Assembly (NCBI GenBank): GCA_040880525.1
Contig: JBBDIG010000059.1
Coordinates: 1 to 60,871, forward strand
Origin: Bacteroidia bacterium
GTDB taxonomy: Bacteria; Bacteroidota; Bacteroidia; CAILMK01; JBBDIG01
Reading direction: 5' to 3'
DNA length: 60,871 bases
Program-made: the position numbers and the translations under genes
Notes under the pieces: generated by a model
What the model saw: the letters and a program-made list of their open reading frames with translations, nothing else
Told to the model about the DNA's origin: nothing
Databases searched by the model: none
Part shown: one piece after another, positions 36,490-38,691 of the stretch
Numbering within the stretch: the first letter of the stretch is position 1
Layout: the number at the start of each line of letters is the position of its first letter

Positions 36490-37335
36490 ATGGATAGGAC
36501 AATTGATATTGAAAACGAAACCCATGATTTAAATGAATGGATTTTAAAAAGTATCCAGCTATTTGAAAGAACACCATACTTAGATAATCTATTGGAAGTT
36601 TACCCATTGGAATCAGCAGTACCTGTACATTTAGATCCACACCTGAAGAGAAGAATTATCTCGGCACATCAGGGAAGAAGAACGAATGAATTGATCAGTA
36701 TTCTCCAGGGTGAAACAAAATTTCCTTATGATGAACCATTAGCCTATTTGATAAAAGAAGTTCAGAACTGCCTAGGAAGCAATCCTAAGCAAATGCATAG
36801 AATTGCCAACACTCTTTACGCAATGACTGCTGATGAATTATTGGTACATCTTGAATCTGCCCCAAAATTAAATACCCAAATGGGACCTATGTTCACTACC
36901 TGGTTACGTAATAATTTTGAGTTATTAAATATGGAAGATTTTCAAGAATCTATGGAGGGTATATTCATTCTGAGTTCATCTGAAGAAGAGGGAAGAATTT
37001 TTATTAATAATGTTTTAAATCAAAATTTGGGAAAACGACCAGATTTGGTTGCGAAGGTAAATCAAACCTATATAATTGGAGAAGCTAAATGGATTGGACG
37101 TTCGGGAGGTAACCAAAATAATCAGGTAAGGGATGTTTTAAATTTTTGTCGCGACCAACGTGGTGCAGTAATAAGAGTTGGTATAATAGATGGTTTTCCC
37201 TGGGCAACTCGCAAAATCAACAACTCCATAATCAATGACAAAGTAAATGTGCTGGTACAGGAATTTCCTTACGATATAGTAAGTGCCTTGCTTCTGAAAG
37301 ATTATCTGACCACGTTCTTAAAACCTAATCTTTAG
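36490..37335 (+). CDS. Putative type II restriction endonuclease (PD-(D/E)XK fold)
   Basis: I do not recognise this 281-residue protein by name. It carries a credible PD-(D/E)XK nuclease core: Pro184-Asp185 in KRPDLVAKV, then Glu198-Ala-Lys200 in IIGEAKWIG, with 12 residues between Asp185 and Glu198 and hydrophobic strands around both motifs. Upstream helical residues could form a DNA-binding part. It is convergent with, and overlaps by 11 nt, a DNA methyltransferase gene, which strongly suggests a restriction-modification pair. Recognition site cannot be read. Coding DNA is AT-rich: 36901-36960 has 17 G/C of 60. Confidence 0.75.
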   Translation: MDRTIDIENETHDLNEWILKSIQLFERTPYLDNLLEVYPLESAVPVHLDPHLKRRIISAHQGRRTNELISILQGETKFPYDEPLAYLIKEVQNCLGSNPKQMHRIANTLYAMTADELLVHLESAPKLNTQMGPMFTTWLRNNFELLNMEDFQESMEGIFILSSSEEEGRIFINNVLNQNLGKRPDLVAKVNQTYIIGEAKWIGRSGGNQNNQVRDVLNFCRDQRGAVIRVGIIDGFPWATRKINNSIINDKVNVLVQEFPYDIVSALLLKDYLTTFLKPNL

Positions 37336-38626
37336 AAACATATTCAAAGTAATTGCATTTTATTTTTCGGTTCTTAAATATTTTACGGACAACTTCGAGC
37401 GAGTGAGTGGAGTTATCAATTCCAATCCATTGTCTGTTAAGCTTATTTGCAGATTTAAGGGTGCTTCCGGAGCCACAAAAGCAATCCAAAACAATTGAAT
37501 TCTCATTTGACGAATTTAAAATTATCCTGTCCAGCATGGATTCATTTTTCTGTGTAGGATAATCAACATAAGATAACCCCTTGTCTTTAAACTCCCATAC
37601 ATCCTGAACTTTAAAACCTTTGTGCTCATCTGCCAAAACTATTTTTCTAGGATTTCCATTGCCTGACCATTCGATTAAGCCCTGTTTATTTAATTCTGAA
37701 AGCACTTTCCTGCTGTATCTCCAGTGCCTTCCTTTTGGTGGCATTAATCCTTTCCATTCCAGCCCGGTATCGCCATCCACGGTTTTTCCCGGGGCATGAA
37801 TCGGGTTTGTGGTATAATATCCTAATTCCGGATGTTTCTTTGGGAATAGTTCCTTCCTTTTTTCTTCTGACATAGGCTCCTTAATTTCATTCCAGATTTG
37901 CCTGTCCCTGTTTTTAGCATAATACAGGATCATGTCAGAATAATTGCCATAGGCATTTCGTGCAAAATTTTTAGGATTGCATTTAATTCTGGTTATATCA
38001 TTTATATAGTTTTTAAACCCAAAGACTTCATCCATAATAATTTTTACATAGTGTCCGATTTTCTTGTCAATATGCAAATAAATACTCCCCTGATCAGAAA
38101 GCAGTTCACGAAGTAAAAAGAGCCTTTTTCTGATAAATTCCAGGAATTCGCTATTAATCAACTTATCTGAATAGGCAGAATCATCATCAATGGAATTAAA
38201 ATCAAGACCGGTTCCAAACGGTGGGTCAATATAAATTAAGTCAATTCTGCCCTTGTGGGTTTCCAGAAGCTTTTTAAGAACAAACAGATTATCTCCAAAA
38301 ATGTATCGGTTTTCTTTTTCATTGTGGTTTTGTTCTATTAACTTAAATTCTCCGTGGCTAATGGAATAAAGTATTTCAAATTCATCAGTTTTATCGCCAT
38401 AGTCCAAAGAACAGTTTTTCGTTCTTTTAAGATAACTTACCTGCGGCTCTTCTACAGTGGAGTTGTTGCTAAGAAAGTTTTCAAAGTCATGCACTGTTAT
38501 TCTGTAGCTTTTATTTATCCTGACTGCATTTAAGTGCTTGTTTTTAATGTACTTGGAAACTGTTTGACGGGTTACTTTCAGGTTTTGCGCTACTTCGTCC
38601 ACTGTTAGAAAGCCTGACTTGTTCAT
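37325..38626 (-). CDS. Beta-class DNA methyltransferase with N-terminal excisionase-like HTH
   Basis: The 433-residue protein is a beta-type amino-methyltransferase. Motif IV DPPF is at residues 134-137 (in IYIDPPFGTG), and the SAM motif I lies near the C-terminus (VLDCFCGSGST, about 379-389). Such enzymes methylate N6-adenine or N4-cytosine; DPPF does not settle which. The first 55 residues form an excisionase/MerR-like helix-turn-helix (FLTVDEVAQNLKVTRQTVSKY), joined by a linker. It is convergent with the putative nuclease gene. 38041-38100 has 19 G/C of 60, far lower than the ydeP-like gene next to it. Confidence 0.88.
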   Translation of the reverse strand: MNKSGFLTVDEVAQNLKVTRQTVSKYIKNKHLNAVRINKSYRITVHDFENFLSNNSTVEEPQVSYLKRTKNCSLDYGDKTDEFEILYSISHGEFKLIEQNHNEKENRYIFGDNLFVLKKLLETHKGRIDLIYIDPPFGTGLDFNSIDDDSAYSDKLINSEFLEFIRKRLFLLRELLSDQGSIYLHIDKKIGHYVKIIMDEVFGFKNYINDITRIKCNPKNFARNAYGNYSDMILYYAKNRDRQIWNEIKEPMSEEKRKELFPKKHPELGYYTTNPIHAPGKTVDGDTGLEWKGLMPPKGRHWRYSRKVLSELNKQGLIEWSGNGNPRKIVLADEHKGFKVQDVWEFKDKGLSYVDYPTQKNESMLDRIILNSSNENSIVLDCFCGSGSTLKSANKLNRQWIGIDNSTHSLEVVRKIFKNRKIKCNYFEYVSKD

Positions 38627-38691
38627 ATCCTCTGATTTGACGCAAAGTAACGCGTATTAACATAAAATAGCAAGTGACAATAGAAGGTAGT

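Follow-up and report, generated by a model that had tools for sequence, protein, structure and literature searches.

The window analysed here, a stretch of 60,871 nucleotides from a Bacteroidia bacterium, carries a convergent pair of genes that almost certainly forms a type II restriction-modification (R-M) system of the Tsp45I family, one that reached this genome by horizontal acquisition. Judged from its own sequence and that of its relatives, the system would probably cut GTSAC, and its methyltransferase would regulate itself by means of a fused helix-turn-helix (HTH) domain, with a GTSAC copy in the promoter of its gene taking part in the feedback. The nuclease family is already described and its recognition site is predictable; the newer point is the methyltransferase with its fused HTH and the arrangement of the promoter. 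This arrangement seems to join two known types of R-M feedback, i.e. HTH autorepression as in SsoII and promoter methylation as in CfrBI, in an m6A enzyme. R-M genes that arrive in a new host need the protector before the cutter. A literature search (with most subscription journals lying outside it) did not find such an arrangement described for m6A enzymes, and the locus provides the exact sites to mutate.

The gene pair and its products

The nuclease is encoded by an open reading frame (ORF) of 281 aa on the plus strand (36490-37335, ATG start) and the methyltransferase by one of 433 aa on the minus strand (37325-38626, ATG start), such that the genes meet tail to tail and overlap by 11 nt (37325-37335), just as a first-pass annotation of this DNA had stated. 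The G+C content of the pair is 35-36% versus 44% for the window, as is to be expected of an acquired module. The same annotation had read the pair as a type II R-M system with a PD-(D/E)XK nuclease on the strength of four motifs, namely P184-D185 and E198-A-K200 in the nuclease and DPPF (at 134) and FCGSG (at 383) in the methyltransferase. All four are found at the residues quoted and they go beyond chance, given that all of 30 relatives have D185, E198 and K200, that both ORFs match curated families far above the cut-off and that about 25 genomes carry such a convergent pair; the reading itself is supported by the Pfam and PADLOC matches, the invariant residues, and the structure model and comparison. 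That annotation made no mention of the less ordinary features of the locus, namely the HTH domain and the conserved element in the promoter.

The nuclease aligns with the Tsp45I profile of Pfam (PF06300) over model positions 1-258 of 260 at 125.9 bits (E 2.7e-36), where the curated cut-off is 25 bits, and is labelled REase_II by PADLOC. The profile search that had been proposed as a test for the 281-residue protein thus returned a nuclease family and not a known non-nuclease one. Its catalytic core, PD-X12-EAK (37039-37089, plus strand), contains the three invariant residues, which are retained down to 25% identity and are located on, or adjacent to, strands 186-190 and 193-202 of an AF2 model built from 27 sequences (pLDDT 90.7); P184 is variable, with L at the same place in the relatives that stand in tandem with their methyltransferase. 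To these tandem Tsp45I-type enzymes the nuclease is about 27% identical. A search of NCBIfam gave no family for it, the sequence search of the PDB no credible relative and the phage search no match, and the plasmid search returned two distant matches only. When the Foldseek candidates were compared with the model by VIA-align, BstEII came first (Z 7.7 over 236 residues), followed by AgeI (6.4), PspGI (5.1) and MunI (5.1). The Z for BstEII stays below 8, too low to be decisive alone, and Foldseek itself gave nothing better than E 0.01, so that the fold link comes from VIA-align only; we treat it as supporting and did not use it for family membership. Of the solved structures in the comparison none is closer in fold than BstEII, which shares only 11% sequence identity with the nuclease and whose 7-bp site, GGTNACC, contains GTNAC.

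The methyltransferase combines an N6_N4_Mtase catalytic domain (Pfam, 147.5 bits; 37391-38245, minus strand) with an N-terminal HTH_17 domain (48.5 bits; residues 6-55, 38462-38611, minus strand), and scores 453.6 bits as PADLOC MTase_II. Motif IV (DPPY/F) precedes motif I (FxGxG), with the TRD in between, which is the order of the beta class of adenine-N6 DNA methyltransferases; the profile and the fold matches (MboIIA, CcrM, EcoP15I Mod) agree with this, and the Pfam profile, being N6_N4_Mtase and not DNA_methylase, places the enzyme outside the m5C (C5) class. The HTH is MerR/excisionase-like: it is modelled as a winged helix (helix-helix-two strands-helix), and T22, V23, I27, A34, K39 and F51 are invariant in 15 fused relatives. 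The linker between the domains (residues 56-70) has low confidence in the model and is probably flexible. Compared by sequence with PDB chains the HTH had no significant match, and among ORFs of at least 80 aa there is no separate HTH ORF of the C-protein type next to the pair. The methyltransferase is about 51% identical to its counterparts in the tandem Tsp45I-type systems, the similarity starting only after the HTH.

Prediction of the recognition site

Tsp45I recognises GTSAC (GTCAC/GTGAC), and since the nuclease is a member of its family, GTSAC is the site predicted for the window system, very likely correctly in our estimation. The 281-aa enzyme would cut GTSAC where it is unmethylated and, like Tsp45I, probably before the G (^GTSAC), leaving a 5' overhang of 5 nt, and the 433-aa enzyme would protect by N6-methylation of the adenine. 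A beta-class m6A enzyme of GTSAC, M.Hpy99II, is found in H. pylori J99 (PMC3936762). With Tsp45I and Hpy99II (GTSAC, PF06300) the window system has in common the nuclease family, the beta-class m6A methyltransferase and the predicted site; it differs from them in that the tandem relatives examined have neither an HTH on the methyltransferase nor the promoter footprint described below. A probable site is in this way assigned to a Tsp45I-like branch whose identity to the tandem enzymes is as low as that given above. The first-pass annotation had considered the site unknown, whereas it can be predicted from the family, from its avoidance in the genome and from the promoter footprint.

In sampled stretches of the host genome (458 kb) the observed/expected ratio (o/e) of GTSAC is 0.67, the third lowest of the 32 symmetrical 5-mers. 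By the same k-mer statistic GGWCC stands at 0.69, and the host possesses an EcoO109I-type R-M pair (G000:C18; L115:2641-4219, minus strand; PF14511, 306 bits) that fits the depletion of GGNCC in its genome, the site of EcoO109I being RGGNCCY; the coincidence suggests that the statistic works. Across 8 genomes that bear the family the median o/e of GTSAC is 0.38; it is 0.87 across another 35 (Mann-Whitney p 0.0018), which were screened for the nuclease family or for the methyltransferase, mostly not for both. Several samples comprise 20 kb at most. Counter-cases occur in both directions: G235 carries a fused system and yet shows weak depletion (0.92), and strong depletion is found without such a system in, for instance, G411 (0.15) and G395 (0.40).

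GTSAC occurs 7 times in 50.8 kb of R-M genes and 67 times in 107 kb of flanking sequence; the higher AT content of the genes accounts for part of this scarcity. In the window, the stretch from 35.5 to 40 kb has no GTSAC other than the GTCAC of the methyltransferase promoter. Being rare in R-M genes and around the locus and yet present in the promoter, the word appears to be kept there. A contig from a viral collection (L180) combines an HTH-methyltransferase 61% identical to that of the window with a convergent nuclease that scores 280 bits against PF06300, and has the same type of promoter; as this nuclease is much closer to the Tsp45I model, we counted the contig in favour of GTSAC.

The methyltransferase promoter and its possible role in self-regulation

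Upstream of the methyltransferase gene, on the minus strand, lies the predicted R-M target GTCAC (38674-38678), followed by a probable promoter (38643-38673) that consists of TTG (38671-38673), a spacer of 20 nt and TTACTTTG (38643-38650). Compared with the -33/-7 consensus of Bacteroidota, TTTG/TAnnTTTG (PMC6847099), the -7-like box TTACTTTG departs in a single base, at a position that is almost invariant. Three direct repeats, GTTA, GTTA and GTCA (38658-38661, 38648-38651 and 38638-38641; together 38638-38661), are spaced 10 bp apart and constitute a candidate operator for the HTH. The repeats extend over parts of the spacer and of the -7-like box, and GTCAC abuts the -33-like TTG.

The same elements recur upstream of HTH-methyltransferase genes as a footprint, GTCAC-N12-GTTA-N6-GTTA, often with a third repeat 10 bp further on. 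Column information is 1.4-2.5 bits in GTCAC and 1.0-2.6 in the two GTTA blocks, versus about 0.4 bit or less in the upstream columns. A loose form of the footprint was present at 23 of the 25 fused loci, the misses being L038 (contig end) and L027 (GTTAC instead of GTSAC, with the remaining footprint intact), and again in all of three further loci, two of which are near copies of each other; since the loci are related, these counts overstate the number of independent events. The loose form was missing upstream of the nuclease gene at every locus, from all 12 tandem or other loci and from 955 kb strand-bases of the host sample; by chance it arises in 1 of 12,500 shuffles. The strict motif occurs a single time in 395 Bacteroidota genomes, namely at the window locus, and the idea that the GTTA repeats are a generic Bacteroidota promoter was set aside for that reason. 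GTSAC itself precedes the repeats by an almost constant 12 nt in 26 of the 27 readable fused loci, so that, given GTSAC as the site, all 26 show a recognition site overlapping the methyltransferase promoter as in CfrBI; the spacing is altered in L008 and L040 (26 and 16, respectively). The middle base is C in 24 cases, G in 2 and T in 1, and the change from C to G, seen in two divergent loci, is what the degeneracy of GTSAC recognition allows.

Three separate ways of controlling R-M transcription are known, namely a C protein, methylation at a site that lies in the promoter of the methyltransferase, and an HTH on the methyltransferase (PMC3978073); the second and the third of these seemingly meet here in one promoter, outside the m5C enzymes that are known for HTH autoregulation. 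In SsoII, EcoRII and others the HTH of the methyltransferase binds a separate site and represses its own gene. The window system resembles this SsoII/Ecl18kI/EcoRII type in the N-terminal HTH, the candidate operator in the gene's own promoter and the linker, which the model suggests to be flexible, but M.SsoII is an m5C enzyme that uses a 15-bp quasipalindrome distinct from its methylation site, whereas here a beta-class m6A-type enzyme has a MerR/excisionase-like HTH and direct repeats. CfrBI has just one recognition site in the promoter of its methyltransferase gene, on the -35 element (PMC3978073, PMC3874152). The window system is like it in having one predicted site in overlap with the upstream promoter element; it is unlike it in that the methyltransferase promoter of CfrBI overlaps that of the nuclease and control is by methylation alone, whereas the window genes are convergent and have a fused HTH with repeats besides. 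A parallel for the mode of binding is BldC, a small MerR-like winged HTH that binds 9-bp direct repeats head to tail. Such binding to repeats of about one turn fits the 10-bp GTTA repeats, for which it is predicted here, although BldC is a stand-alone protein and the HTH of the window is fused to an enzyme.

As the promoter holds both a candidate docking site for the HTH and the enzyme's own target, the methyltransferase probably turns itself down. From the hallmarks of HTH autorepression and of CfrBI-type control, together with the positions of the repeats and of GTCAC, we infer autorepression to which the embedded GTSAC adds an input. The HTH would bind the GTTA repeats head to tail and, once bound, would repress the promoter, whose spacer and -7 region they overlap; that it binds there and represses its own gene is quite likely. 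The GTSAC, which borders on the -33 region and precedes the repeats by about 12 nt, would put the target of the catalytic domain in the same promoter, and its occupancy or methylation could join the feedback, a role to which we give somewhat better than even chances. Immediately after the genes enter a new cell, the promoter would be free and unmethylated and the methyltransferase made at once; later, with protein accumulating and sites becoming methylated, transcription would be turned down. The nuclease gene would be served by its own upstream region, without the elements of the footprint. We put forward more tentatively, at a little under even chances, that the promoter is bivalent and self-sensing, one polypeptide reading it twice: the HTH would register the level of the protein, and the catalytic domain, acting at GTSAC, the state of methylation. 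If true, methyltransferase synthesis would follow both the amount of enzyme and the protection of the genome, and the two methyltransferase-based kinds of R-M control would be combined in one system of the m6A class.

Autorepression by the HTH might also suffice by itself, with the promoter GTCAC being part of the operator or of the -33 element and its methylation having no role. This would account for the position of GTCAC against the -33 TTG in most loci, for its near-fixed distance to the repeats and for L027, which keeps its footprint with GTTAC; we nevertheless hold it to be rather unlikely, because the TTG after GTCAC varies (L015, L025, L028, L031, L034, L035, L041) and GTSAC does not, because the change of the middle base in two divergent loci matches the degeneracy of recognition, and because few copies of GTSAC are found elsewhere in the R-M genes. 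The fused HTH could also be an activator, or first an activator and then a repressor in the manner of C proteins: activation by way of the promoter spacer is common among MerR relatives, the spacer here contains one of the repeats, and a stand-alone HTH_17 ORF stands before a related methyltransferase on Geobacillus pBSO1 (see below). The overlap of the repeats with the -7 region as well, which is a repressor position, the repression of their own gene by known HTH-methyltransferases and the lack of such a site upstream of the nuclease make this reading improbable.

Still less probable is an ordinary Tsp45I system with an inert HTH remnant, in which the footprint would be a strong core promoter only: core promoter elements do overlap the footprint and R-M genes often carry promoters of their own, but the HTH is strongly conserved, the strict footprint occurs nowhere else in the 395 genomes, unlike a core promoter, and tandem loci without HTH are also without footprint. 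To the first-pass reading of an unrecognised or poorly described nuclease family with an unknown site we attach next to no credence; the low identity to the tandem enzymes and the lack of an NCBIfam model and of a credible PDB sequence relative could speak for it, but the PF06300 match, well above the cut-off, already contradicts it, and the invariant residues common to the tandem enzymes and the resemblance of the partner methyltransferase to theirs speak against it too. A self-regulating methyltransferase with promoter GTSAC in the feedback is the reading we prefer.

Distribution of the system and missing words in the host genome

When one genome per species was scanned, 28 relatives of the nuclease came to light, mostly in Bacteroidota and also in Planctomycetota, KSB1 and Omnitrophota, and the family is present in 10 of 395 sampled genomes of the phylum. 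A convergent pair with the HTH on its methyltransferase is present at about 25 loci, usually with a stop overlap of 4 nt; the 11-nt overlap is also seen in L029 and L030. The tandem Tsp45I-type loci (L002-L007, L042, L044) have a co-directional methyltransferase without HTH, and two Planctomycetota loci (L033, L039) combine a close nuclease with a tandem methyltransferase, again without HTH. These distant hosts and mixed pairings point to frequent transfer. The fused class is conserved in Bacteroidota and has few members elsewhere (L036 in KSB1, L040 in Omnitrophota). The nuclease frame is broken in L034 and L032 and the methyltransferase frame in L022, the promoter footprint being kept in all three; these may be decaying systems or sequencing errors.

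Related methyltransferases (45-47%) are encoded on Geobacillus stearothermophilus plasmid pBSO1 (L045:2742-5074) and Acinetobacter johnsonii pDJ-Red (L046:2899-5061). Their convergent partners, proteins of 287 and 291 aa, have no Pfam match and a better claim than the nuclease of the window to being unrecognised restriction enzymes. On pBSO1 a stand-alone HTH_17 gene of 60 aa precedes the methyltransferase; considered as a possible ancestor of the fused domain, its product is only 36% identical to it.

In the window genome (G000) CGNCG is nearly absent, with 1 copy seen versus about 940 expected in 494 kb (sampled stretches L047-L066, L087-L090, L114 and L115 plus the window), while CG-N0, N2, N3, N4 and N5-CG have normal counts. 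The word is likewise absent from the samples of G395, G398, G408, G409, G412, G414 and G049, and normal in most other genomes of the phylum. Its absence is much stronger than usual restriction avoidance, and the systems seen here do not explain it. G000 also encodes an N6_N4 methyltransferase (TSPPY motif) with a C-terminal staphylococcal-nuclease-like domain (G000:C5; L114:4990-6288, minus strand), of which copies about 70% identical occur in the CGNCG-free G395 and G412 and no close copy in the CGNCG-free G398, G408, G409 and G414. In a related genome, G399 (L075, L116, L117), it is CGNNCG that is missing (0 versus 15 expected in 40 kb), CGNCG being normal.
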